The notes under the pieces were generated by a model that did no database searches, had not been told where the DNA came from, and was given only the letters and a program-made list of their open reading frames with translations. Below are positions 987 to 44,353 of a DNA stretch of 48,099 bases, one piece after another (the first letter of the stretch is position 1; every line of letters begins with the position of its first letter). A program made the translations under genes and the position numbers. Location: NCBI GenBank assembly GCA_022703485.1, contig JAKLDO010000012.1, positions 1-48,099 on the forward strand, in the 5' to 3' direction. The DNA is from a bacterium (lineage in GTDB: Bacteria; UBP6; UBA1177).

Positions 987-2771
987 TCAAATAAAAACCA
1001 TACTGCAACCGCTGTCTTTCTTTCCGGTTATCATTTCATTATCTTCAATTTCAACATCCTCAGTTTCACTATCATGATCATTCTCAAAGTCAACAGAATC
1101 GGTATCTGTAACATCTTCTCCGTCAGGCTCTTCTTCAGAAACTGCACATTTTTCACCGCCCCACTGTCCGATAAGACCCGCATCTATAAAAGTTCCAGAC
1201 AGATCGAATACCACTTCACCTTTGACCGGTGTATCATCCCAGTAATCGGCAACGGTGCTCGGAAGCCTGTATTTAGGCCAGTATGCCGTGGAAAGATGAA
1301 ACCCCATCCTGTGACCTTTATTGAAAATTATAGAAATGTAGCCCGCATTGAATGTCATAACGGTCTTTTCACCGGAAGTCAGCAGTTTTTCATTGTCAAA
1401 ACCATCCCTGAACCTGACCTTTTTACCCCCTTCTATGATGAGATATTCAGTTCCGTCGGGATAAATGTCAGTAAGGACTGCAACAAGATCGAAATCCTTA
1501 AGCCCTGTCGTGAAAGAAACTGTGACATCGACAGCACCCGTGATTTCAGTAGGAGTTTCAAAAGGTTCTGTCTGAAAAGAGATGGCATCACTTCTTTTGC
1601 GGTACTGCGAAACATCGCAAGGTCCCGGATTTATTGTAAGATTATTACCGCAAAGGGTCGGGAAAGGGTCGGCATAGTCAAATTTGAGATTAAGATCGCC
1701 GCTTCCGCACTCCCCGGCTTTTAAAATGAGGTCTGTTCCGGCTGAAAGTCTCTGAGGCACAGTTTCAACCGGAGGAAAAGTGTCAGAAGTCTTCCATACA
1801 TTTCCCGGAGCATTGTCATCTTTTATATCACCGATCGTGTAATAGGTCACAGGCGCCCAGTCGGGTTTTGCAATGTTGAGCGGATAATAGAAATGGACAA
1901 GCAGGGCGAATGCCGGATCGGTATCACCTTCGTAGTATTTTTCAGCATTTTCAGGAAATGTCATCTCATTTGACACATTGCTCATCATAGTTCCATGTGA
2001 CCACGGACCCATTACAAGATGCTGGTCGGGAGCACCCGATGCCTGATAAAGATTGAAAGTGTCCACCTGATGACGGTTGAACATATCGAACCATCCGCCG
2101 ACATGGGCGGCCGGAACCGCGATGTTCTCAGGAACTGTATAAAGATTCGTCACATCCCAGTAATCATTTGTCATGCTGTACATGTCATCAGTTTTCAAAG
2201 TATCAAGGAAGAATGATGCATCCTGCCCTTCAAGCCACGCTGTCATTGCATGCTCTCTGAACATCCCGCCCGGAAAGAAAGTTCCGTCATAGAGATCGCC
2301 TGAAGCAACCGTGATTATCTGATAGACAAGTCCCGGTTTTTCATCAAGCCCGGCCATCAGATATTGAGCCAGTCCCTCGGCAGATCCTCCTATTGTAGCT
2401 ATCTTCCCGTTACACCATGACTGGTCCGTGATCCACTTTAAGGTGTCGTATCCGTCATGCATCTCGCCCCAGCCCTCAGAATGGAAGACCCCGTGAGTTC
2501 CGCCGGATCCGAAAGTACCCCTGAAAGACTGCGCGACAAAAACCACATTGTTCGCAGTGAGATCTGTCCCTATCTGAGCTTTCTGATCCCTGTCATAAGG
2601 AGATCTGTTGAGAAGCACGGGATAGCTCTTCCCTTCCCAGTCGTCAGGAAGATATATGTCCGTTTCCAGCTCAGTTCCATCCTCCATCGGCACCATTACA
2701 GTCTGTTTCACGACCGCTCCGAGCTGAAGGAACATCCCTATGATAAGGACTTGAACCGTTATTTTTGACAT
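987..2771 (-). CDS. CocE/NonD family (X-Pro dipeptidyl-peptidase-like) serine hydrolase, secreted
   Basis: Alpha/beta hydrolase of the CocE/X-Pro dipeptidyl-peptidase family; it should cleave an acyl or peptide bond, substrate unknown. The nucleophile elbow is GGSAEG (S130); the likely Asp is in GGWFDMF (D229) and the His in PWSHGT (H259). A PepX_C-like jelly-roll domain occupies roughly residues 350-535. The N-terminus is hydrophobic enough to be a signal peptide. The last 50 residues are an Asp/Glu-rich linker ending in GKKDSGCSMVFI, very like the end of the neighbouring metalloprotease. I chose ATG at 2771, with GGGAGGGTGTG before it, over the GTG one codon upstream. The export route and the role of the tail are inferred. 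Confidence 0.88.
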   Translation of the reverse strand: MSKITVQVLIIGMFLQLGAVVKQTVMVPMEDGTELETDIYLPDDWEGKSYPVLLNRSPYDRDQKAQIGTDLTANNVVFVAQSFRGTFGSGGTHGVFHSEGWGEMHDGYDTLKWITDQSWCNGKIATIGGSAEGLAQYLMAGLDEKPGLVYQIITVASGDLYDGTFFPGGMFREHAMTAWLEGQDASFFLDTLKTDDMYSMTNDYWDVTNLYTVPENIAVPAAHVGGWFDMFNRHQVDTFNLYQASGAPDQHLVMGPWSHGTMMSNVSNEMTFPENAEKYYEGDTDPAFALLVHFYYPLNIAKPDWAPVTYYTIGDIKDDNAPGNVWKTSDTFPPVETVPQRLSAGTDLILKAGECGSGDLNLKFDYADPFPTLCGNNLTINPGPCDVSQYRKRSDAISFQTEPFETPTEITGAVDVTVSFTTGLKDFDLVAVLTDIYPDGTEYLIIEGGKKVRFRDGFDNEKLLTSGEKTVMTFNAGYISIIFNKGHRMGFHLSTAYWPKYRLPSTVADYWDDTPVKGEVVFDLSGTFIDAGLIGQWGGEKCAVSEEEPDGEDVTDTDSVDFENDHDSETEDVEIEDNEMITGKKDSGCSMVFI

Positions 2772-2858
2772 CACACCCTCCCTTGAAACATGGAAAAAAC
2801 TATTTTCATTTAGGTGAATGTATCATAATTTGCGAAAAAGAGAATATTTCAGGAAAAA

Positions 2859-5147
2859 TCAAAGGGTGGTCAGCGAACAGCCTGAATCTTCTTTTTTATC
2901 AACAGGCTCTGCGTCATCATCTTCGAAAATGTCACTGTCCCCTTCTTCATCTGTTCCGTCAGTAATTTCATCAGAAGTTTCGCTGTCGTCATCCCCGGTT
3001 TCAGCAGTACAATCTTTCTCTGATCCCCATGAAACAGAAACTTTAGGTCCATAAAGCATTCCTGCCGGGCCTGTATTTATAAACTGGAAATAATATCTGC
3101 TTCCCGGAACAAGACCCTTCACTGTCCAGCTGCCCGTACCTATGACATATGAATCATAATCGACTTTGAAAGGGATATCGTCAACTGTCCATATCACCGG
3201 CTTGTCCTTTCTCACAAGCAGACTGTATTTGGGGGCTGATGATGAGCTCATTGACTGGCCGTCAGTAGCCATTCCGGTTATTGTAAGAGTATCAATGCAT
3301 TCAGGAACATCATAATAAAGCTGGACATACATAGGAGCCACATCCATTTTAGCGCCTTCTATCTCGACTTCAATGGTCTCCGAAGGCATTCCCTGATACT
3401 GTGCCACTCCGCCGCTGAAAAGATACTGCGCCTTGTTCATGATATTTCTTGCACGGACTTCATTGTAAAAGCCTTTTTCATCAAGTATTGTCTGGAACTC
3501 ATCCTTCAATGAGGCAAGGTCTGTATCTTCAACTGTGTCAAGAAGAACATCCGCCCAGCCTTTGAAATCAAGGTCTGAAAATGTGACAGACATCAGTGAT
3601 TCCATGAAAAATTTAGCAAAATCATCCTTCGTGCGGCCTTTCTCAAGGACTTTCTGATACATTGCCCAATGAGCTGAAACCGCAGGAAGTCCGTCATGAT
3701 GGCTTTCACCGATAAAATCCTCGTTTACAAGATTTTCATTATCGGCAGTTCTCAGACAGTAGAACTCACCTTCTTTTTCATTCCCGTATCCTGCACCGTA
3801 AGCTTCAGAAACATACTCGCCCAGACACGAATCACCTGCTATGATGAAAGAGAAAGTATCCGCCATACCTTCATTAAGGCCTATGGTTTCATTACTGTAG
3901 CCGTATTTGTCGGCAAAAGCGGCAAATCCGAGTTTGGCAACGCTTTCAACTGTGGCATGTCCGAATTCATGGTAAATGACATCTCCGTCATAGGCGAAAT
4001 CGGCCTTTGAACCCTGACCAAGTACGATTATATCACCCTGATATTCAAAATTCTTGAAGAACATCTCGGCGAAATAAGGATCGTGCGGGCTGTAGAACGC
4101 ATTGTCCATCGGAGCGAGAACAGTGGTACTCTGAGGCATCTGGAAATTGCCCACACCGATGATCGGATTATTTGATGTACCCACATTGTGAGCATCAAGA
4201 TGTGTGAAACCTTTGATCCCGAGACCCAGAATATAGCTGTATACCTTTGCCATATGGTAATATACCGCGACTTCAGAATAGACATCGTCGGCATCATTTT
4301 TGAAAGCCACGCCGTCCGTCCAGTCTTCATATATGAAATTACCGTTCTCTTCCTTGTTTGCGGTCTGTGTCGGAGTGCATATCGGATACTGTGAACCGTA
4401 ATAGTCCATTTTTTCACCGAGATCGAGACAGTTCGTTGCAACTATCTTTCTTACTCCGGCTTCATCAAGCTCAGCTGTAAGTTTTCCCCCTTTGTCATCA
4501 GAGACCCACGGAAGTTCCACTTCAACAGGCTCTTCGTTCCTCAAAGGATTTGTCTCAAACACCTTTGCAGTATTTTCTGTCGCTTTCATGACAAAATTTC
4601 CGCCGCCGAGACTTTTTCCATTGTGTGCATCGACATAATAGAACCTTCCGTCAAGCGGTGAGGAAGGTCTGAACCTTATTTTGTATGCGAGACGGAACTC
4701 ACCTGCATGTCCGATTATGACAAGCTTTGATATGAAGTCAGGATCTGACAGTATTTTACCGTGATTGTTCACTGAAACGATCTTCGCCGCGGCATTTGCC
4801 GTAATTGAAGGCGTCGTGTCAATGTTCACATTGCGCATACTGTTGATCATTTTGAATATTTTCCCGTTCTTTTCTTTAAGCACTGTGTATTTCCCTTCGA
4901 CAGGAATACCTTTGTAGCTCCAAGCCACCCTGTGAAGTTTAATGTCACCTATCCTGTTCGTTGTGATGAGACGGCCTGAAAGGTCACTGTCATTTACAGA
5001 AATAAGACCGTTGAGATCACGGGCGACAAAGGACTTAAGCTGTTCAGCTGTTCCTGCGCTTCTGTTAAGTTTAATGAATTCAAGGTCGTGTCCGCAGATG
5101 CCTGAAACGAAAAATACTACCGCCAGAACTGTTAACAACTTCTTCAT
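2859..5147 (-). CDS. Secreted zinc metalloprotease, M36/M4 (fungalysin/thermolysin) type
   Basis: Extracellular zinc endopeptidase of the gluzincin group, 762 residues. It has a signal peptide (MKKLLTVLAVVFFVSG), an FTP/PepSY-like propeptide up to about residue 200 that would hold the enzyme inactive, and a catalytic domain with YHEFGHATVE (H393, E394, H397) and the third zinc ligand in NEGMAD (E426). The spacing and NEGMADTF context fit M36/M4. A beta-sandwich-like region follows, then an Asp/Glu-rich stretch ending KKEDSGCSLTTL. That tail matches the tail of the CocE-like hydrolase just downstream, so both may be sorted the same way. GGGGG lies a few bases before the ATG. Confidence 0.9.
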   Translation of the reverse strand: MKKLLTVLAVVFFVSGICGHDLEFIKLNRSAGTAEQLKSFVARDLNGLISVNDSDLSGRLITTNRIGDIKLHRVAWSYKGIPVEGKYTVLKEKNGKIFKMINSMRNVNIDTTPSITANAAAKIVSVNNHGKILSDPDFISKLVIIGHAGEFRLAYKIRFRPSSPLDGRFYYVDAHNGKSLGGGNFVMKATENTAKVFETNPLRNEEPVEVELPWVSDDKGGKLTAELDEAGVRKIVATNCLDLGEKMDYYGSQYPICTPTQTANKEENGNFIYEDWTDGVAFKNDADDVYSEVAVYYHMAKVYSYILGLGIKGFTHLDAHNVGTSNNPIIGVGNFQMPQSTTVLAPMDNAFYSPHDPYFAEMFFKNFEYQGDIIVLGQGSKADFAYDGDVIYHEFGHATVESVAKLGFAAFADKYGYSNETIGLNEGMADTFSFIIAGDSCLGEYVSEAYGAGYGNEKEGEFYCLRTADNENLVNEDFIGESHHDGLPAVSAHWAMYQKVLEKGRTKDDFAKFFMESLMSVTFSDLDFKGWADVLLDTVEDTDLASLKDEFQTILDEKGFYNEVRARNIMNKAQYLFSGGVAQYQGMPSETIEVEIEGAKMDVAPMYVQLYYDVPECIDTLTITGMATDGQSMSSSSAPKYSLLVRKDKPVIWTVDDIPFKVDYDSYVIGTGSWTVKGLVPGSRYYFQFINTGPAGMLYGPKVSVSWGSEKDCTAETGDDDSETSDEITDGTDEEGDSDIFEDDDAEPVDKKEDSGCSLTTL

Positions 5148-5859: not shown

Positions 5860-8361
5860 TTATCCTTCCCCGAAGAATTCCCTGATCTTCCGGGCTATTT
5901 CGGATGATGGCAGCGTATAGAACTTCACTCCGTCGGGAGCGGCTTTGACAAAATCCCTGCCGTAATTCTTTTCTATCATCCTTTTATCGAGAACTGTAAC
6001 TGTGCCGACATCGTTTTTTGTCCTGATAAGCCTGCCGAACCCCTGCTTGAACTTGAGCAGTGCATTCGGAAGTGTGTAAACGACAAAACCGCTCTGACCT
6101 GTATCAGCTTCAAGCTTTGCCACATATCTTTTGACAAAGGGGTGGCTCGGGAACCTGAAAGGAAGCTTCATTATGACAAGATTGCGCAAAGTATCACCTT
6201 TCATGTCAATACCTTCCCAGAAAGTATCTGTCGCAAGAAGGGTCGCATTCCTGTCATCCCTGAAGTCCTTCACCACCTTTGATACAGGATACTTTCCCTG
6301 ACAGATCACATTGAAATCGAGGTCTGTCATCTGTTTTGCGGCAAGCTCACGGTGTCCTATCGAAGTGAAAAGGACAAGAGCGCCGCCGTTGGACGCCCTG
6401 ACTATCTCCTTTGAGGCGATGACACTTTCCGAATCGAACGATTCCCTGCTGTCGACAGGACTTGGCATATCGGTGCAGATGAACGCTCTGACCTGTGAAC
6501 TGTAATCAAAACAGCTTTCAAGGTTCACATATTTCTTTTCACGGTCAGTAAGGTTAAGCCCGCTCTCTCTATTGAAAAAAGAGAATCCTTCATCCGTCTT
6601 TCCGGTGCTGAGAGTCGCAGAAGTGAATATTACACATGCAGTCACATTGTAAAGTCTTTCCGCAAGTATCTTCTGTATCTCGATAGGTGTCGTGGTGAAT
6701 GTTATTATCTGGTTACGGTCCTTTTCACCCCAGAAGACCTTTGATGCAGTATCTTTTGAAATACAGAAATCGCTTAAAAATTCATTACACTTTTTAAGCT
6801 TTTTTACGGTCCCTTCCGTATCAGCGATCAGATACATCATAATATCATCATTGGGACTCCTGAGCGCCGCATTTGAAATGTTCACGGCCTTTATCTTCTT
6901 AAGTGCAGGCTCGATAAGTTCAGGTATCTCAGAGATACCTGCAATAGCTTTTTCCATCACTTTAAGGATACCGCCTCTCACAGTGATACTGTCAAGCTCA
7001 TAAAGACCTTCCGAATCTTTACCGAGAGCTTCAAGTATGTCAGGAACTATGGAGTGAGTGAACAGCGGAATGAACCCGGAAAGGCGGTTGACAGCCTTTT
7101 CAAAAGAAGCTGAAACTTCCTTATCTGCATAATTATCAAGCAGTTTTGTCAAAAGACCGGTCCCTCTTTTCGGGAAATAAAGCCTGTTGAGCTGTTTTAT
7201 GACATTCTGAGTTGAAACGCTTTCACCGAGAAAGCTTATCGCGCTTTTAAAAAGGTTGTGCGCCTCGTCAATAACAAGTATATCGAACTTCGGCAGAAGT
7301 CCCGCCTCATCCTCTGAGTCCATTTTCATCGCCACATCCGCCATAAGAAGATGATGGTTGATGAGTATTATTGAAGCAAAATTAGCCTTGCGTCTGGCAC
7401 GGAAAAAGAAACAGCTGCTAAAATGCCTGCATCTGCTTTTTTCACAGGTGAACTCCTCGGCGCACACTTCCGACCATATATCGACCGCAAGGGCGCTGTT
7501 CATTGATGACCTTGTACCGTCATTAACTGAATTCATCCAGCTGTCGATATCATTGACCGCATCCATCCTTGCATCGTCCTTTTCAACGATCTTAGTCTGC
7601 ATACTCTCCATCTTGAACATGGAGTATCTTCTTTTGCAAAGATAATTGCTCCGCCCTTTTAAAATTGCGACATTGACATCATCGAAACCGAGATTGTCCC
7701 TGATGAACGGGATGTCCTTTGCAAAAAGCTGTTCTTCAAGCGCGATCGTCGAAGTGCTTATGACACATTTTTTACCTTTATTCTTTGACACGAAAAGCAT
7801 TGCAGGAATGATATATGCAAAACTTTTACCTGTTCCTGTCCCCGCTTCAGCAACAAGAATACCGTTACTGTTAACCGATTCTGTCACTTCAAGCGCCATT
7901 TTCATCTGCGGCATCCTGAACTCGTATTCAGGGAAAATGCTTTTGAGCTTTCCGTTCTCCTCCAGTATCGCAGAAACATTATCAGGATCGACTTTTTCTA
8001 TCTCATCACAGTCCGGCAGGATCCTTTCAACGACAGGGAATACGCTGATGACATTGTTGTCCACAATGTACGATCCGACACCTTTTTCAGCCGCTCTTGC
8101 CGCGACATCAAGGTCTGCGGTGCTCGGTCTGACATCGCCTCCGGGGTGATTATGGATAAGTATCTCTCCCGGTGAAGCCGCCGCTATCACAGCAGGCACA
8201 GAGAACGAATTCCCCATGGCGGCTCTCCTGAGATCAAAAATCAGCCCGTCATCATTAACAGTTCCCACCATGACGATCTCATTCCCGTCATTTTGCGAAA
8301 TGAAATGTCTGGCAAGCTGTACGGCTTCAAAGGTGAAATAGGAATCTGTCTTGAACGGCAT
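5860..8361 (-). CDS. dinG: DinG/XPD-like helicase with N-terminal RadC-like JAB (MPN+) domain
   Basis: Predicted 5'-3' superfamily 2 DNA helicase of the iron-sulfur XPD/DinG group, 833 residues. Helicase motifs: Walker A GTGTGKS near residue 173, four cysteines around 294-310 (C-x5-C-x4-C-x5-C) suited to a 4Fe-4S cluster, DEAH near 364, a SATLSTG motif, and motif VI QGFGRLIR near the end. Unusually, the first ~110 residues form a JAB/JAMM metalloprotease-like domain: a Glu in the early NEIVMVG strand and HNHPGGDVRPSTAD, the RadC-type zinc signature. All JAMM ligands are present, so that domain could bind zinc. A repair or replication role is expected; what the JAB domain does is unknown. No strong ribosome binding site precedes the start. 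Confidence 0.92.
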   Translation of the reverse strand: MPFKTDSYFTFEAVQLARHFISQNDGNEIVMVGTVNDDGLIFDLRRAAMGNSFSVPAVIAAASPGEILIHNHPGGDVRPSTADLDVAARAAEKGVGSYIVDNNVISVFPVVERILPDCDEIEKVDPDNVSAILEENGKLKSIFPEYEFRMPQMKMALEVTESVNSNGILVAEAGTGTGKSFAYIIPAMLFVSKNKGKKCVISTSTIALEEQLFAKDIPFIRDNLGFDDVNVAILKGRSNYLCKRRYSMFKMESMQTKIVEKDDARMDAVNDIDSWMNSVNDGTRSSMNSALAVDIWSEVCAEEFTCEKSRCRHFSSCFFFRARRKANFASIILINHHLLMADVAMKMDSEDEAGLLPKFDILVIDEAHNLFKSAISFLGESVSTQNVIKQLNRLYFPKRGTGLLTKLLDNYADKEVSASFEKAVNRLSGFIPLFTHSIVPDILEALGKDSEGLYELDSITVRGGILKVMEKAIAGISEIPELIEPALKKIKAVNISNAALRSPNDDIMMYLIADTEGTVKKLKKCNEFLSDFCISKDTASKVFWGEKDRNQIITFTTTPIEIQKILAERLYNVTACVIFTSATLSTGKTDEGFSFFNRESGLNLTDREKKYVNLESCFDYSSQVRAFICTDMPSPVDSRESFDSESVIASKEIVRASNGGALVLFTSIGHRELAAKQMTDLDFNVICQGKYPVSKVVKDFRDDRNATLLATDTFWEGIDMKGDTLRNLVIMKLPFRFPSHPFVKRYVAKLEADTGQSGFVVYTLPNALLKFKQGFGRLIRTKNDVGTVTVLDKRMIEKNYGRDFVKAAPDGVKFYTLPSSEIARKIREFFGEG

Positions 8362-31801: not shown

Positions 31802-32935
31802 CTAGTCGTCTATATTCACTGGATCAGGGTTGAAGATGGTTCCAGCGTTCGTTACAACATAATTACAGTCACTACCGTCAGGGATCTTAAACTGTTCAAA
31901 GAAATTAGCGGAACCATCAAACTCATCAGAAGTTGCTTTCAATTGATTTTCAGCACCCATTTCCAGAGAACCGCTAGAAGCTTGCAAAACTTTCTGTTCG
32001 TCTGTCCAGATTATATCGCCACCAGCGGTCTGTCCATCCGCAGCAAACCATCCGTTCTCAAATTTCGAAGATGATTTCTCAACGATATGCACATATCCTG
32101 ACATTGTTCCGGCTGTTTTCACATACAATCCAGGAATTCCGTCTTTGTCCCAGTCCTGAACACATGGATCAGTTTCTTTGTTCGGAAGCACATAATCTCC
32201 GGGCTTATCGCCGTAACAAGCCGGATCTATTGACCGAATCTCCCAAGATGTATCCTGAGTAAACCCATATGTACCGTCGCCATTATCAACAAGTGTCGAT
32301 TCTTTCGGAAGTAGCGGTAATGCATCTGCAAAACTCTGAGGCATTTGCATTTCAAGGAGATAACTTTTCGTATTGTCAATTTTTATGTTGCATATTTTTG
32401 CCTTTATGTGGATCTTATCCTGCTCCTGTTCCTGAACAACATAGAAATATGTTCTTGTCCAGGCTTCAGCCATATTGATCGTTGCAACTTTGGATGCGGC
32501 AGTGAACCACATTTTCTGGGCATATTCGCCGCAGACTTCAGGATAGCTTCCCGGATCACATGTGCATTTTGCTGAATCCACCCATACACCGCCGGTACAG
32601 TTCTGATAAAGTTTCCCTTTGCCTGTCGAGCCGCATACCGTAACACCTATCCTTGTATCGCCTTCTGTGGAGCATGTTTCGGTTATAACTCCGTCATCAT
32701 CTGTGATCTGGACATCATCTTCGGCTTCATCAGGAGTTTCGTTGTCAGCTTCCTCTGCAATTTCATCCATATCCTCTGTTTCATCAGCAGCATTATCACT
32801 GACAGTTTCATCATCGTTATCCTGATTGTCGTCCACTTTGACATTATCGTCATTTTCAACAGTCTCCGAATTATCCCCGCAGGAAATAAAGAACACCATT
32901 GAAAAAGCCGCAACGAGTGCAAATAATTTTTTCAT
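31802..32935 (-). CDS. Lipoprotein with long acidic linker, unknown function
   Basis: 377 residues. A lipoprotein-type signal (MVFFISCGDN) is followed by about 65 residues made mostly of Asp, Glu, Asn and Thr (residues 20-85). A small Cys-rich segment comes next (TVCGSTGKGKLYQNC ... CTCDPGSYPEVCG). The C-terminal ~230 residues are a beta-rich region of no family I recognise; it contains QDWDKDGIPGLYV, which resembles a calcium-binding Asp-rich loop. The Cys-rich segment hints at disulfide-bonded surface display. It begins 27 bases after the FadL-like barrel gene and is probably co-transcribed with it. Function cannot be assigned. Confidence 0.75.
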   Translation of the reverse strand: MKKLFALVAAFSMVFFISCGDNSETVENDDNVKVDDNQDNDDETVSDNAADETEDMDEIAEEADNETPDEAEDDVQITDDDGVITETCSTEGDTRIGVTVCGSTGKGKLYQNCTGGVWVDSAKCTCDPGSYPEVCGEYAQKMWFTAASKVATINMAEAWTRTYFYVVQEQEQDKIHIKAKICNIKIDNTKSYLLEMQMPQSFADALPLLPKESTLVDNGDGTYGFTQDTSWEIRSIDPACYGDKPGDYVLPNKETDPCVQDWDKDGIPGLYVKTAGTMSGYVHIVEKSSSKFENGWFAADGQTAGGDIIWTDEQKVLQASSGSLEMGAENQLKATSDEFDGSANFFEQFKIPDGSDCNYVVTNAGTIFNPDPVNIDD

Positions 32936-34752: not shown

Positions 34753-37700
34753 TCAGTCGCGCTGAACATAGAATACAGCTGTACCGAACTGATCAATTAC
34801 GAATGAATTGAGCTGATCAAGTGTAGTTTCCATTATTACCAGTCTGCTGAAAGCTTCAGCTGAACCTAATGATGCGTCAAACACTTCCTGTTCCTTGAGT
34901 ATCTTCGCATCTCTTACAACTCTGTATGAAGGTGCGTACCTTGCATATTTGTCGCCAAGGAATTTCTTGAAATCATCTATTGTCGCAAATCTTACATTTT
35001 CGCCGTCAGCATTGATCCTTGCAACCTCTGCTGTAACCTCAGCGGTTGTCCAGTCCGGATGTGCCTTTATGACAACTTCTGTGAGATACCAATCCGGCCA
35101 TTTTGCATCTACAAGGCACGGAGAAAGGTCTTCAAGACCGTCAGCAAGCCTCTCTTCTCTGCATTTTCTCCATCCTCTGTAGCTGAATGAATCCGCATTG
35201 TCCATTGCGCCGACAGGAATACTCGCTCTGTAGTAAACATTCTCATCCTGGCTGAGGAACTGCTCTTCATTAACATCAGGAATCGGGTAAAGGCTTATTT
35301 CATACGCCGGAATCACATTTGTTATCCATCTTCTGAGAACTGATGTATCTGCAGAAATATTAGCCATATTACCCATAGCCCAGTAATTCGGCCACATCTT
35401 ATCAAAATAGATCCAGCCTGCATGTACAGGAACATATCTTCCCGGTTTAGCTTCGCTTACCATAGAACACAGATTGATAACAGGTTCATAGGAACCCTGA
35501 AGTGTGGAAGCCTGCGGCCAGAATGAAGGAACTGCACCGAAATTGGTAAGAACATTTGCAGGAAGCTGTGCTTTTACAACAGAACCGCCGATGGTCGCAT
35601 CAACACAGTACGGAGAGAATGTCATTACGGATTCTTCTGTTGCAATATCAGAAAGAACATTGAACACAACATTTTCAAGTCCTGGCATCAGCTGATAAAG
35701 GCTGTTAGCTCTGCTTTCCCTTCTGTATTTGCCGTCAAACCATCCGGAATTGGAAAGTGTGAAGAGCGAAACCATCTTCTCTTCAGCAAATCCTCTTCTG
35801 ATGACCTTATCATAGTAGATACCGGGGTTGTCCTGAATGTCATAACGGTCTCTGTGGTAACGACCCATGCTTGCAGGAACTTTTATGAATGCACTCTTAG
35901 GAATTCCGAAAGGATCAGGATCGGAGCTTATACCGTCAATGTAGTTGTCTGTCGACTGATAGTAATATGTCTGACCATCAGGATCTGTCGGATTATAAAG
36001 TTTATTTGCAGCTGTAACATCATTATCAACCTTCATGTACTCACCTGCTGAAGGCTTATAGATGCTCTCAAAAAGAAGGTAATTAACACCTTCCATACCT
36101 GCGAGGGCATGGTCGCCAAGACCCATCGGTGTCATACCTCTGAGTTTATCATTTGCATCGATCCAGTACTCTTCGCCAAGAAGAGCTTTTGAATGCTCTT
36201 TGCAAAGATGGTCGTCAACAAGAACAAAGGAATCCTCTGTCTCGCCTACCGGGATGGTCATCGTAGAACAGCCGTCCTCTGAATTCCAGAGCGGAACATG
36301 CGGGAACCACTTGCCGTAAGCATAGAAGTTGTAGTCGAGAAGGAAGTGAACGAACTTATACTGTTTGAACAGTGAATCGTGTATCATCTTCATTGAAGTT
36401 CTGCCGCGGAACTCTCTGAACTTCGGGTTACCTCTTCTGAAGAATCTGAGGTAGTAGAACATATCTTCCATGTCGACCATCTGTCTTACTATATCTGTTG
36501 CAAGGTATCCGCCGTCGAAAGTATTCGCTTTCGGCTCGTCATAAGACTTTTCATCAGATACAAAAACATACTCATAGTGACTACCGTCATTTACAAGATA
36601 GGTTGTATTTCCTTCGCAGTAGTACTGATCAGGATCTGCACCGTCGCAGTCATGTTTGAATTTGTAAGAACCGTCTTCATTTGTCATTATGTTGCCAAGG
36701 AGTGTTCTCTGGAACCTCGGGATCATCCTGATGACTTTTTCACCATTTTCATAATATTCAACGGTTTCTCTCGGTTTTTGAACCTTTATGAGTTTACCGT
36801 CGTCACCGATGAAAGGAGAGTTGTACTTTACATAATCAGGATATCTCGGATCTCTAAGCCCGTTTACAAGCTCAGGGTTCGGGTCATTCGCATCACCTTC
36901 GAAAACTATAAGACCGTAGTCTTTTCCGCCTTCGACCATGTACTGCTCTATCGAACGGCCGTAAACAAGTTTAAGAGCCGCTTTGTCATATTTTCCAAGA
37001 CCGTTAGCATGAATATACGCCTCTCTCTGGTAATCCATGACAGAGTTGTATGTATAGTAACCGATGTCGGAACCGAAAGATTTCTTATATTTATAAACTT
37101 TTGTACCGATAGTGGTAGGATCGTAGTCAGCTTTTGCAGCTTCTTCCCTGACAAGCTTCTCAACACCTTCCATCATTGTCGGATAGTTCCTTGTAGCATA
37201 GTACTCGTCACCGTAATTATTGATATCCGTAGAACCGGCGAAATTGTGCCTGAGACCAACAGTGTGACCCATTTCGTGCTGAGCGACACCTTTGTACATA
37301 AGTTTTTCAAGCTCATCATAGATCGAATAGATAAGAGCTTTTTCATATTTTTCCGAACCGGTCTTGCCATCATTCCAGTTAGTGATCTCTTCACGGAGTG
37401 CAAGCTGTTTAGCTTTTATAAAGTTAATGATCGTTCCATCGAGGAAGCTTTCATCATAGTCAAAGTCAAGAGCTTTTGCATCCATCCATCTGAGCATCTG
37501 AGCTTCCATAAGAGCAGGACCGCCGTACCACGGTTCCATGATCTCTTTTTCTGCGTCTGAGTATGAAGGACTGTCTGCAGGATCCGACCATGGATAAAGC
37601 GCTCTCTTAATAGAATAGGGAACCATCTCTGTTTCCCACTTTGTTCCTTTTATAGCACCGAATTTAAAGGTATCATATTTCTGAGATTTTGCCTGGAACA

Positions 37701-39978
37701 TGTCAACATACTCCTCAAGAGCTCCTTTCTGCATTTCAAGAGGAAGGTTCGGATTGAGGGTAGCCATCGGCTTATTTATCATTCTCATGCTGTTATTTCT
37801 GAGATTCGTAGAAACCGATTTAGGCTGATATGTAGCAGGTTTATTGTTCCATGCGACTTCAGGGTATTTTTCATAATCGGGATTGAGAAGATCTTCAAAA
37901 TCCCATGCGGCAGGATCATCTTTGTCAATGATCATTCTTGCCATTTCAACTGCTCTGCTGGTCGCCCATGCAAGAACTGAACCGGCTATATTGGATCCGC
38001 CGCCGAGAGACATACCTGTCTCAGGGTTCACATTCCACTGAGAAACACCGAGAATACCGTATTCTGTCGGTTTATCAACCCAGTTTATAAGCGCACCGAA
38101 CTGGTTTCCATTATCATACTTGTGTCTGAGCACAGGCTGTCCATCCTCAACATCACAGGTTCTTTCTTCTGTGAGAACACAAGCTGCTTTGGCTTCTACA
38201 AGACCTTCAGGGCATTCTTCGTTTTCGCTGAATATCTTGCAATCCCAGCGGTCGCCTCTCCATTCTGCGTTACCTGCTTCATTAACATAAAGAGCTGTTG
38301 CTTCTGCATTGTTGGTGTAGCAGGTCTCAAATGTCATAGCCTTATCTTCTTTGTAAAGAGCCGCCTCTTCAGGTTCAACGCATATCTTTACAGCATTTTC
38401 ACGACTGTCAGAAGAGTAATTGAAATAGTTGTTATAACCGTAAAGCGATTTTCCGTCTCTTGCAGGAATAAACGCTTCAACAGGGTTCTGAACCATTACA
38501 ACCATATCATTTTTGTATTCTTCCATAACTTCTGCGATCTCAGAATTTGCAGAACCGTCCTCATTTTCATCAATGAAGGAACCATCCCACTTCTGAATCC
38601 ATGCATGTGTTTCAGGCACAAAACACTTTGATTTCCAGTCAACCTTGGAAAGATCGCCAAGATACCAGTACTGGTCACGGACAGTAACACCGTTGACTTC
38701 CTTGAAGAAATCGTTCTTGTAATTTTCAACATACCATTTTTCGAACTTACGGGTATCACTTCCTGGATTCATTGCTGCATACCTTGCGGCAAGCATTGCA
38801 TGGTTGAAATCCTTTGTAATTGAACAGTTAATAGGAATGATACGAAGCGGCGTCTTGGGTGAAGACATAAATACAAGTTTCTGCTGATATTTAACTTTTT
38901 TCAGACAGGTATTGAAATCTTCATCTTTACCGCACTTGAAATTCCAATTCTTTTCCGCATCTGCCCATGCCACATTGAAGTAGTTGGCAAGAATGTGGTA
39001 ATTATCATCTTTGTATCCGTGATAATTGTCATATCCTTTGAATTTATTCGTGAAATATCCATATTCCCTGAAAAGTTCGTCCTGGAACTCAAGAGGTCTG
39101 AAGCCGTTATCCTTTGAACCCTTCTTCCAGAGGAACGATCTTGTTGCAAGATCATAATCTCTTTTTCCAACAACATCTCTGTTAACTTTTGAGAAAACGA
39201 AACGATAAGTAACGCCGGCAGGCTCAGTACCCACAAATTCTTCTACATCTTCCATAGTGTAAACATTTTCCCAGTCATTGCGGGGAGCAAGATATTCCGT
39301 AGATGTAAACTGGAACCACTGCACTTCTTTTGCGGTCCTTTCTTTATCGTCCGCAATTGCAGTATACTCACGGTATTTCTTGGGAGTTATAAATGTGCCG
39401 TCATGAGCATAGAATTCCCAGTCTTTACCGACTGTAATTCCATATCTGTAGAATGGAGCACCCCATTCTATAGTCATAGTAAGATACTTGAGCTCAAAAT
39501 TGCTTGTGCCAGTGAAAGTATCTACAGCAAGTGCAAAGTAACGCCTTTCATTCCATGGTCTATCCTGATTAATACCAAGTACCGGAAGAGCTTCTCCGGT
39601 TGTCGGGTTTTCAGAAGGAACGATGTCATAATGCATTGCAATCGGGAAAGAAACAATCGGTGTTTCATTGACATCAATGTTCTCATTTGTGTCTACAGCT
39701 GTAAGATTATCCCAAACGCTGTAACCGATAAGCCAGTTCTCTGTAATTTTCCACTTAACTATCTTTCCATCGTTCGACTCGCCTATGAACGCATAATCTG
39801 CGGTATAGGGAAGATCCACAATGGTCTGACGGAGAAAGAACTCTCCTTCGAACAACCTTTTGTCCAGAGAGAGCTCGGGTGATTTGTCCACTGCGTCTCT
39901 TTCTGTCGTACATGATACTGCGATCATGACAACAATAAGAGCTGCAAGCAGTGAAAATGCTCTTTTAAACCAGTTCAT
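34753..39978 (-). CDS. Very large zinc-dependent metalloprotease lipoprotein (EcxA-like domain)
   Basis: 1741 residues with a lipoprotein signal (LIVVMIAVSCTTERD). The catalytic signature is HEMGHTVGLRH (H901, E902, H905, H911), followed by NFAGS and further on YNSVMDYQRE, where the Met can supply the metzincin Met-turn. This HExxHxxGxRHNF context belongs to the EcxA-type zinc-dependent metalloprotease family common in Bacteroidetes and related diderms. The protein is twice the family's usual length, with ~880 residues before the active site. It lies 18 bases after a barrel gene and is followed by a strong terminator, so the pair is one operon. AAGGAGG precedes the ATG. Substrate unknown; probably surface protein processing or nutrient acquisition. 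Confidence 0.85.
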   Translation of the reverse strand: MNWFKRAFSLLAALIVVMIAVSCTTERDAVDKSPELSLDKRLFEGEFFLRQTIVDLPYTADYAFIGESNDGKIVKWKITENWLIGYSVWDNLTAVDTNENIDVNETPIVSFPIAMHYDIVPSENPTTGEALPVLGINQDRPWNERRYFALAVDTFTGTSNFELKYLTMTIEWGAPFYRYGITVGKDWEFYAHDGTFITPKKYREYTAIADDKERTAKEVQWFQFTSTEYLAPRNDWENVYTMEDVEEFVGTEPAGVTYRFVFSKVNRDVVGKRDYDLATRSFLWKKGSKDNGFRPLEFQDELFREYGYFTNKFKGYDNYHGYKDDNYHILANYFNVAWADAEKNWNFKCGKDEDFNTCLKKVKYQQKLVFMSSPKTPLRIIPINCSITKDFNHAMLAARYAAMNPGSDTRKFEKWYVENYKNDFFKEVNGVTVRDQYWYLGDLSKVDWKSKCFVPETHAWIQKWDGSFIDENEDGSANSEIAEVMEEYKNDMVVMVQNPVEAFIPARDGKSLYGYNNYFNYSSDSRENAVKICVEPEEAALYKEDKAMTFETCYTNNAEATALYVNEAGNAEWRGDRWDCKIFSENEECPEGLVEAKAACVLTEERTCDVEDGQPVLRHKYDNGNQFGALINWVDKPTEYGILGVSQWNVNPETGMSLGGGSNIAGSVLAWATSRAVEMARMIIDKDDPAAWDFEDLLNPDYEKYPEVAWNNKPATYQPKSVSTNLRNNSMRMINKPMATLNPNLPLEMQKGALEEYVDMFQAKSQKYDTFKFGAIKGTKWETEMVPYSIKRALYPWSDPADSPSYSDAEKEIMEPWYGGPALMEAQMLRWMDAKALDFDYDESFLDGTIINFIKAKQLALREEITNWNDGKTGSEKYEKALIYSIYDELEKLMYKGVAQHEMGHTVGLRHNFAGSTDINNYGDEYYATRNYPTMMEGVEKLVREEAAKADYDPTTIGTKVYKYKKSFGSDIGYYTYNSVMDYQREAYIHANGLGKYDKAALKLVYGRSIEQYMVEGGKDYGLIVFEGDANDPNPELVNGLRDPRYPDYVKYNSPFIGDDGKLIKVQKPRETVEYYENGEKVIRMIPRFQRTLLGNIMTNEDGSYKFKHDCDGADPDQYYCEGNTTYLVNDGSHYEYVFVSDEKSYDEPKANTFDGGYLATDIVRQMVDMEDMFYYLRFFRRGNPKFREFRGRTSMKMIHDSLFKQYKFVHFLLDYNFYAYGKWFPHVPLWNSEDGCSTMTIPVGETEDSFVLVDDHLCKEHSKALLGEEYWIDANDKLRGMTPMGLGDHALAGMEGVNYLLFESIYKPSAGEYMKVDNDVTAANKLYNPTDPDGQTYYYQSTDNYIDGISSDPDPFGIPKSAFIKVPASMGRYHRDRYDIQDNPGIYYDKVIRRGFAEEKMVSLFTLSNSGWFDGKYRRESRANSLYQLMPGLENVVFNVLSDIATEESVMTFSPYCVDATIGGSVVKAQLPANVLTNFGAVPSFWPQASTLQGSYEPVINLCSMVSEAKPGRYVPVHAGWIYFDKMWPNYWAMGNMANISADTSVLRRWITNVIPAYEISLYPIPDVNEEQFLSQDENVYYRASIPVGAMDNADSFSYRGWRKCREERLADGLEDLSPCLVDAKWPDWYLTEVVIKAHPDWTTAEVTAEVARINADGENVRFATIDDFKKFLGDKYARYAPSYRVVRDAKILKEQEVFDASLGSAEAFSRLVIMETTLDQLNSFVIDQFGTAVFYVQRD

Positions 39979-42299: not shown

Positions 42300-43640
42300 T
42301 CAGTCTCTGGCTACCTCTTCAATTATGTTCATGTTATATATCCTTATCATTGCAAAAAAAGCGAGGATCTGTCCGGTTATCAAAGTTATTGCTATGCCTT
42401 TGATCTCAACCGATGTGAAAATGAATGGTTCAATATCTATCCCGAGAGAAAAATCTATTAACGGTTTCAGATACCAGAGAACTCCGTGACCTATCAGTAT
42501 ACCTGACAATATCCCGGCAATCGTCACCAGAACTGTCTCTATCATCACTGTCATTGATATCGCCATCCTTCCTATGCCGAGAGTCCGCATAAGAGCCATC
42601 TCTTTTTTTCTTTCATTGACAGCCATGAGTATGGTCACAAAGACCATCGCAAGCACTATCATAAGCGTCGCATAGCTGAAAAGCCCTGCCGCAGATTCAG
42701 CCTTGTTCATATACTGTACTATCCGTCTCACTGTTTTTCCGGTATCTGTCGCCGTTGATCCTGTTCCTGCAGAATATTCCCTTTCAAGTTCAGCAGTTGC
42801 AATAGGGTTGACAGTTTTCACAAGTACTGCGGAAAGGGTTCCGTGTTCGCTTTCAGCTCCATGACCGGACTCTTCTTTCTGAGCACCGTGATGAAGTTCG
42901 TAATTGGCGCAACCTTTATGATCTTCATTTTCATGCCCGTTCTCTGCTTCGTGTCCGTGCTCTGCTTCGTGCTCTCCATGATGTTCATGGACTTTCCATA
43001 CAGCTTTGTAGTTTACATATATTGAAAAATCCTCGGGGCCGTTGACCGGAGCCATCACCGCCGCGACATAATACTCAAAATCCGCATGATCCTCAGAATC
43101 CTCATCACCGACATGCCCGTGACTTCCGGCAAACCTGTCACCGGTCCTCAGTTCATATTTTTCAGCTACTTTAAAACCGATCACGGCTCTATGGAGGTCT
43201 TTGTCGCTCAGAATGTCTTTCGCATCAACATCGCCGTGCTTAAGTATGAGCTCTTTACTTATCTCATTTATCAGGTCACTGCTGACACCTGTGATAGGGA
43301 TCCCCATGTAGCTGTCAGCCCTTGCGACCGGAAATGCCGCAACGACTCTTTGATCCGCCTTCAGTTTTTCGTATATTTCATAGTCCAGTGTACCTGCGGG
43401 CTTGTCAATATTGAATATCGTCGACATCACAATCTGCGTGTCGCTTGATCCGGCAGGTCCGACGACAAGCGGGAACTGAAGAGAACTGTTCACAGCTGCG
43501 GAGGCGAGACCGAAAGATATACTGCCTATCGCGCTGAGGAATATGAAAGCCGCTGCGATAGCACAGACTGAGATCGCAACCGTTCCTGACCTGTGTTTCA
43601 TATTGTGGAACACTGCTTTAAGGATGAACGCCGTCCTCAT
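42300..43640 (-). CDS. FtsX/LolE-like ABC permease with His-rich periplasmic loop
   Basis: 446-residue permease of the MacB/LolC/FtsX class: one N-terminal span (about 14-40), a large periplasmic domain, and three spans at the C-terminus (about 325-440). The last part includes the ERKKEMALMRTLGIGRMAI motif that couples such permeases to their ATPase. Within the periplasmic domain, residues about 217-267 hold 12 His in 50 residues (HEHHGEHEAEHGHEAE, ENEDHK, YELHHG, SGHGAESEH), and a second small cluster lies at SHGHVGDEDSEDH. This strongly suggests zinc or nickel binding. Its start overlaps the ATPase stop (ATGA). Whether it moves metal or a metal-linked substrate is unknown. Confidence 0.88.
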   Translation of the reverse strand: MRTAFILKAVFHNMKHRSGTVAISVCAIAAAFIFLSAIGSISFGLASAAVNSSLQFPLVVGPAGSSDTQIVMSTIFNIDKPAGTLDYEIYEKLKADQRVVAAFPVARADSYMGIPITGVSSDLINEISKELILKHGDVDAKDILSDKDLHRAVIGFKVAEKYELRTGDRFAGSHGHVGDEDSEDHADFEYYVAAVMAPVNGPEDFSIYVNYKAVWKVHEHHGEHEAEHGHEAENGHENEDHKGCANYELHHGAQKEESGHGAESEHGTLSAVLVKTVNPIATAELEREYSAGTGSTATDTGKTVRRIVQYMNKAESAAGLFSYATLMIVLAMVFVTILMAVNERKKEMALMRTLGIGRMAISMTVMIETVLVTIAGILSGILIGHGVLWYLKPLIDFSLGIDIEPFIFTSVEIKGIAITLITGQILAFFAMIRIYNMNIIEEVARD

Positions 43641-44305
43641 GACACCCTCCCTGTTTCAAGGTCCAGCACCGCATCGGCTGTCAGACCGTCAAATGTCGTG
43701 TCATGGGATGCCAGCACTATTGTAGAGCCGTTATCTCTGCATTTACTTATTGAATCATACACTGTTTTTGCCGATACGGCATCAAGACTTGCCGTAGGTT
43801 CGTCTGCAAGTATCACGGCCGGTTTCAGGAAAAGCACTCTTGCAACTGACACTCTCTGCCTCTGTCCTACCGAAAGATGGTACGGCCGTCTGTTCTCAAG
43901 ACCTGTCAGACCCACTTCATTCAGGATGTCAAGCGCTTTCTGTCTGTAATTCTCAGGGAGCTTACCTGCGAAAGCGAGCGGAGCATAGACATTTTCTATC
44001 ACCGAAAAAGGTGAAAGAAGGTTGAATGTCTGGAAAATGTACCCGATATTGCCTGCCCTGAACGAATCTCTGGCACTTTCATGAAGACCGCTTATTTCAA
44101 CACCGTTAACTGTGACACTTCCCGAATCGGGCAGTATCAATCCCGATATCATGTTCATAAGCGTCGTCTTTCCGCTTCCGCTAGGACCTTTTAAACGGAG
44201 GACCGAGCCTTTTTTCATTTCAATGGAAAGATCTTTTATAACTTCGACCTTTGAGCCGTCATATCCCTGATACGACCTTGACACATTTTTAAGAATTATG
44301 TCCAT
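43637..44305 (-). CDS. LolD/MacB-type ABC transporter ATP-binding protein
   Basis: 222-residue cytoplasmic ATPase that powers the FtsX-like permease. Motifs: Walker A GPSGSGKTT, Q-loop FQTFNLL, signature LSVGQRQRVSVAR (Gly to Val in the usual LSGGQ), Walker B VILADEPTAS, and the H-loop ASHD. ATG at 44305 has GGGAGTGTC upstream; the more distant start is unsupported. The stop overlaps the permease start by four bases. LolD-group ATPases work in mechanotransmission rather than classical import. Confidence 0.92.
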   Translation of the reverse strand: MDIILKNVSRSYQGYDGSKVEVIKDLSIEMKKGSVLRLKGPSGSGKTTLMNMISGLILPDSGSVTVNGVEISGLHESARDSFRAGNIGYIFQTFNLLSPFSVIENVYAPLAFAGKLPENYRQKALDILNEVGLTGLENRRPYHLSVGQRQRVSVARVLFLKPAVILADEPTASLDAVSAKTVYDSISKCRDNGSTIVLASHDTTFDGLTADAVLDLETGRVS

Positions 44306-44353
44306 GACACTCCCGAACAATAAAAAGCCACACACCTTAACCCTTAATAAATT

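Follow-up and report, generated by a model that had tools for sequence, protein, structure and literature searches.

Sequence comparison demonstrates a short C-terminal tag, built around an invariant Gly-Cys, that is limited to open reading frames (ORFs) bearing a signal peptide, occurs in two forms on homologous proteins and is accompanied by a myxosortase-like protease. The tag was read from two proteins encoded in the window, which here means the entire analysed stretch of 48,099 nucleotides from a bacterium of the UBP6 lineage (GenBank assembly GCA_022703485.1, contig JAKLDO010000012.1). The source genome measures 3.3 Mb in 239 contigs, of which the window is contig 24. One of the proteins is a CocE/NonD-type S15 hydrolase (Pfam PF02129 and PF08530 matches; NCBIfam TIGR00976 above cut-off) with a hydrophobic segment at its N terminus, and the other is an M4/M36-like zinc metallopeptidase; their genes are co-directional neighbours. 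The tag belongs to a known kind of sorting tag, of which it is a variant without the helix. In the favoured reading, which is probably correct, it would be CaaX-like and stem from a MYXO-CTERM-type tag, with its Cys lipidated, its tail clipped and the protein held on the cell surface once type II secretion has exported it.

A short cysteine tag on exported proteins

The CocE/S15 protein ends in ...GKKDSGCSMVFI and the metalloprotease in ...DKKEDSGCSLTTL. An earlier sequence-only reading had noted that both share DSGCS plus four terminal residues, with the Cys sixth from the end and an acidic linker ahead of it, and both ends read as described, with approximately 40 Asp/Glu-rich residues preceding each tag. 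A Lys-Lys pair listed by the same reading is present in both proteins with registers that differ by one residue (KKD and KKED); it does not hold as part of the motif, since it does not recur generally in the other tagged proteins.

A genome-wide search for the tag near C-termini, as that reading had proposed, brought the total to eight tagged ORFs, two in the window and six on other contigs. The first pattern ([D][S/T..]GC[S..], then three to five codons, then a stop) added two subtilases (DSGCSAIIL and DSGCSVTIF) and a peptidyl-arginine-deiminase-family (PAD) protein (DSGCSAVLL). Loosening the pattern brought in three more: ETGCSAILF on a third subtilase, GSGCSATVF on a C25 gingipain-type peptidase and GTGCSAMVL on a beta-propeller-like protein. 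With three to five residues permitted after Cys-Ser, every true tag in this genome has exactly four. All eight ORFs possess a signal-peptide-like N terminus, a call that denotes a hydrophobic N-terminal segment and not the output of a dedicated signal-peptide predictor.

The survey was extended to 386 genomes, comprising 28 from the phylum-level lineage and 358 outside it from which expected counts were derived. The lineage sample holds 25 genomes from families f1 (that of the window), f2 and f3, plus three from f4, a family outside their order. The tag cannot be put down to chance, because a relaxed pattern found 15 matches in the window's genome against none when reversed, a stricter one found eight against 0.16 expected, and the strict pattern found 52 in the 25 f1-f3 genomes against 4.1 expected, an enrichment of about 13-fold. 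The outside genomes lay at background, and the three f4 genomes gave no strict-pattern match. The matches include some that arose by chance in short frames; reading of the ORF confirmed 50 tags. Apparent tags in f2 (G019) and a few in f1 and f3 were rejected as out-of-frame chance matches in short ORFs.

The confirmed tags have the form [GDE][SGTP]-G-C-[S/T]-x4 and are distributed over 19 genomes of families f1 and f3, with the Cys sixth from the end in all. Gly and Cys are found in 50/50, followed by Ser in 47/50 and Thr in 3/50. The second residue past the Cys is usually Leu, Ala or Val and position -1 usually hydrophobic, and the last residue is mainly Leu, Ile or Phe and always one of Leu, Ile, Phe, Val or Met. 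Part of this constancy was imposed, since the pattern itself demanded Gly, Asp or Glu at -3, the Gly-Cys and a hydrophobic last residue; the association with long secreted ORFs was not. The carriers belong to about a dozen unrelated families, among them subtilases, M36-like and M14 metallopeptidases, C25 peptidases, trypsin, CocE and PAD, as well as DUF11, collagen-like and phosphoesterase-like proteins. The C25 (gingipain-type) and PAD_porph proteins (L077, L081 and relatives) bear the Cys tag here; in Porphyromonas, both families are cargo of the type IX secretion system (T9SS).

Every tagged ORF whose 5' end is intact begins with a hydrophobic, signal-peptide-like segment. No helix was found in the last 100 residues of the short-tag proteins, where 18-residue hydropathy reaches at most 1.41 (median 0.30). 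Median Asp/Glu content is 0.34 in the 40 residues ahead of the tag and 0.16 in the remainder. A mirror image of this arrangement, in which a strongly acidic linker directly follows the lipobox Cys, was seen in the N-terminal lipoproteins at window positions 31802-32935 (minus strand) and in ORF L005:2122-3030, which represent a minority of the lipoprotein candidates. The earlier proposal that the tag is independent of enzyme family agrees with the wider sample, in which the tag is limited to exported proteins. Its suggested novelty also stands, in that NCBIfam C-terminal tag families gave no match to the tagged proteins scanned and no helix-less tag of this kind appeared in the literature searched, a search that did not include the main myxosortase bioinformatics paper (PMC10810001). 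That the short tag is real is virtually certain.

A tripartite counterpart and a myxosortase-like protease

Family f4 carries a longer, tripartite form, exemplified by SSGCSFGLVNNSFLYYFLGFISIFWIVLRKKRDIIKKK: behind the signature xGCS-[F/Y/I] come a short spacer, then a helix and finally a basic tail. An earlier pattern for helix-bearing tags was too strict and gave zero matches in f4; a two-sequence profile located the form on 11 long ORFs, among them a subtilase, amidases, a CAP protein, NHL proteins and an M36-like metallopeptidase. Their 18-residue hydropathy lies between 1.58 and 2.8, and the net charge of their tails between +1 and +5. The window metalloprotease and the f4 metallopeptidase (L214) are homologues (E 6e-28, 26% over the alignment). 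In the aligned ends, GCSLTTL-stop (the window protein), GCSLSVI-stop and GCSLVTL-stop stand in the same place as the long tag of f4 (GCSFNTQNSSNGLIILAVFTFLMIIFRKKSFKIR), which reads GCSFNTQ-helix-RKK. The alignment therefore indicates that the short tag is the first part of the long one, stopped four residues past Cys-Ser. A subtilase of f4 (L206) provides a second, weaker homologous pair (E 5e-6). Derivation from, or equivalence to, the tripartite tag is very likely. The three-part layout also occurs in Myxococcota, which makes derivation of the short form, by loss of the helix and basic tail, the simplest reading.

The window's genome has a single match to PF02517 (CPBP, Rce1-like), above cut-off and on contig 182. 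One homologue occurs in each of 28/28 phylum genomes (the G024 copy is partial), and a close homologue is mostly absent from 33 genomes outside the phylum. In all four families MrtP, MrtC and Mrt_core are the NCBIfam models that match it best, and it also scores on the MrtS and MrtJ models. The Mrt_core (NF040914) score is 76.3 bits in the window's genome and 84.5, 84.4, 96.6 and 92.3 bits in f2, f3 and f4; by comparison, G055 has a true MrtX whose score on its own model is 189. The motifs EExxxR, H and HxxxN are kept, with the two Glu, the Arg and the two His identical across 24 aligned homologues and the Asn nearly so. Judged by these profiles and motifs, the CPBP protein is myxosortase-like and slightly outside the curated family. 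Its structure model (pLDDT, the predicted local distance difference test, 94.8) gave no significant Foldseek match in the PDB, nor did sequence searches of the PDB yield one. No partner in the gene neighbourhood is conserved across the phylum; a putative inositol-phosphate synthase gene, named by resemblance, adjoins the CPBP gene in the window's genome and in G003.

The sequence-only reading had set MYXO-CTERM aside, as helix and Arg cluster are lacking. Both are indeed absent from the short tags, but the idea of an unrelated signal needs changing: because the f4 homologue has a helix and basic tail and all genomes encode a myxosortase-like protease, the tag is regarded as a helix-less relative of MYXO-CTERM-type tags. 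As with MYXO-CTERM (TIGR03901) and MrtX of Myxococcota, it is found on signal-peptide proteins of many families, with an invariant Cys behind small residues and a flexible linker, in genomes that encode a CPBP-family protease and a type II secretin, and f4 has the complete three-part layout. Unlike MYXO-CTERM, the f1-f3 tags run five residues past the Cys to a hydrophobic end without helix or Arg cluster, and the protease falls under the Mrt_core and MrtX cut-offs. TIGR03901 matched neither the short-tag proteins (scans at E<0.1 and E<10) nor two f4 proteins. Synerg-CTERM/MrtS and JDVT-CTERM/MrtJ share a GC-containing signature and a CPBP protease of the Mrt family, and neither tag model gave a significant match here; as far as is known, both of these tags include a helix and a basic tail. 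GlyGly-CTERM/rhombosortase, LPXTG/sortase and PEP-CTERM/exosortase are likewise C-terminal sorting signals on exported proteins, but they are three-part signals with a helix and unrelated enzymes, and their signatures are absent here.

A candidate route to the cell surface

With no helix in the tag, the closest mechanical parallel is eukaryotic CaaX processing, in which lipidation precedes the protease and Rce1 then removes -aaX. The CaaX box, too, has its Cys close to a C terminus without a helix, ahead of a short and mostly hydrophobic tail, and is served by the same protease superfamily (PF02517). It differs in having its Cys fourth rather than sixth from the end, and the proteins here are exported, so any modification would be extracytoplasmic. 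Unlike for CaaX, we know of no prenyltransferase for this system. In the favoured route, tagged proteins would cross the inner membrane by means of the N-terminal signal peptide that is evident in their sequences. A membrane enzyme, perhaps one of several Lgt-family proteins, would then lipidate the tag Cys, and the single CPBP protease would cut behind it in the manner of Rce1, removing the S-x-x-x-x tail. By analogy with MYXO-CTERM and GlyGly-CTERM proteins, the folded enzyme would exit through the type II system and be held on the cell surface by the lipid and acidic linker. We infer that the tag is probably lipidated and clipped. In Myxococcus xanthus, cleavage by MrtX depends on the tag Cys (PMC11980579), and the same work proposes that lipidation comes before cleavage with Lgt as the leading transferase candidate (PMC11980579). 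The secretin GspD (TIGR02517), the one type II component searched for, scores 457 bits in the window's genome, over the cut-off, and is found in 27/28 phylum genomes, mostly above cut-off.

Lgt homologues are numerous in the lineage, with three to seven PF01790 matches per genome, a few of them fragments of one gene, against a single match per genome in the three closest outgroups searched. Lgt-A is E. coli-like at essential positions, while the others have Cys at 146 and 151 (E. coli numbering). Lgt-B adjoins a gene that reads as lspA. A further homologue adjoins, or is fused to, a propeller-AraC regulator. The fused form, of 1252 residues in family f3 (L241:470-4225, G021 contig 12; also L254 and L270), joins an Lgt-family membrane domain to a Reg_prop propeller and an AraC-type DNA-binding domain; in f1 the two parts are separate neighbouring genes, as on G000 contig 210 (L233). 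Such a fusion is possibly a lipid- or lipoprotein-sensing regulator. Yet another homologue, without His103 and Arg239, belongs to an Mla-type operon. At L234:8009-11894 (G000 contig 57) this divergent protein has Thr at 103 and Asn at 239 and lies directly beside an MlaD gene; the locus also holds MlaF- and MlaE-like genes, has counterparts in G001, G003, G019, G021 and G022, and is conserved in f1, f2 and f3. As a specific marker, Lgt is weakened by the finding that the GCC-type occurs as a single copy in 158/358 outside genomes, so that only the copy number (mean 2.6 inside the phylum) is unusual. An Lgt paralog as the transferase is accordingly a tentative assignment, and the full proposal of an extracytoplasmic CaaX-like system, in which a MYXO-CTERM-type tag stripped of its helix would be trimmed by an Rce1-superfamily protease and an Lgt-family paralog would be the lipid transferase, is plausible but somewhat short of an even prospect.

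Several points weigh against the favoured route. Lipid, cleavage and surface location are deduced, and the weakest step is how a tag without a helix would be delivered to membrane enzymes. The CPBP homologues, at 76-97 bits, do not reach the curated Mrt_core cut-off of 100 bits, and the co-occurrence of protease and tag is confounded by shared descent. Family f2, represented by one genome (G019), has the protease (L138) and no confirmed short tag with the patterns used. The extra number of GCC-type Lgt proteins is suggestive at most, since they are common singly elsewhere.

Among the alternatives, the tag could serve solely in export or quality control, its hydrophobic C terminus binding a PDZ-type domain (that of GspC or of a periplasmic protease, for instance) and its Cys forming a disulfide or contact without any lipid. 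The mostly hydrophobic position -1, the invariably hydrophobic last residue (a property set by the search pattern) and the presence of a type II system fit this explanation, but it is unlikely, as it leaves the invariant Gly-Cys, the signature common to the tripartite tag of f4 homologues and the universal protease unexplained. It is more doubtful still that the Cys carries an adduct other than an acyl or diacylglyceryl group, such as a sugar-lipid, an inositol phospholipid or a direct crosslink, gained by transfer onto an envelope molecule in the manner of a sortase or the T9SS. The T9SS cargo families among the carriers and the inositol-phosphate synthase neighbour point in that direction; however, this neighbour is not conserved in other genomes, and no transpeptidase candidate turned up, although none was sought. 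Slightly less credible again is a decaying remnant, left behind when the helix was lost in f1-f3, on proteins that are now freely secreted, with another substrate for the CPBP protease. The short tag does correspond exactly to the first part of the tripartite one, but a remnant would not preserve a fixed four-residue tail, an invariant Gly-Cys and a hydrophobic end over 50 proteins, about a dozen protein families and two taxonomic families. A chance or locally duplicated ending shared by adjacent, co-directional genes is already refuted, since unrelated proteins carry the tag on other contigs and in 18 further genomes, at 52 matches against 4.1 expected.

Features of the window and meaning of the tag

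Coordinates of the two tagged genes and their C-terminal elements in the window
Feature	Position	Strand	Remarks
CocE/NonD-type S15 hydrolase	987..2774	minus	595 aa; signal-peptide-like N terminus; tagged
CocE/S15 tag DSGCSMVFI and stop codon	987..1016	minus	read from sequence
CocE/S15 Asp/Glu-rich linker VSEEEPDGEDVTDTDSVDFENDHDSETEDVEIEDNEMITGKK	1017..1142	minus	read from sequence
M4/M36-like zinc metallopeptidase (HEFGH ... NEGMAD)	2859..5147	minus	762 aa; signal-peptide-like N terminus; tagged
Metalloprotease tag DSGCSLTTL and stop codon	2859..2888	minus	read from sequence
Metalloprotease Asp/Glu-rich linker TAETGDDDSETSDEITDGTDEEGDSDIFEDDDAEPVDKKE	2889..3008	minus	read from sequence

Elsewhere on the minus strand, the window encodes a DinG-type helicase with an N-terminal RadC-like JAB domain (5860-8361; Pfam RadC barely over cut-off) and a lipoprotein-like protein of 1741 residues with a metzincin-type zinc motif, HEMGHTVGLRHN (34753-39978). 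An FtsX-type permease with a long His/Glu-rich insert (42300-43640) lies beside an ABC ATPase (43637-44335), and the pair looks metal-related.

To our knowledge, sortase, exosortase, rhombosortase and myxosortase all act on C-terminal sorting signals that depend on a transmembrane helix. Here, dozens of exported enzymes bear a nine-residue tag that lacks one, alongside a myxosortase-like protease, an arrangement which suggests that the helix can be dispensed with and that the Cys signature carries the information by itself. A metalloprotease with the long tag in one family and the short tag in another offers a natural comparison pair. The finding also bears on the transferase that would lipidate the MYXO-CTERM Cys, for which Lgt is the leading candidate (PMC11980579), and this lineage provides several Lgt homologues to test.

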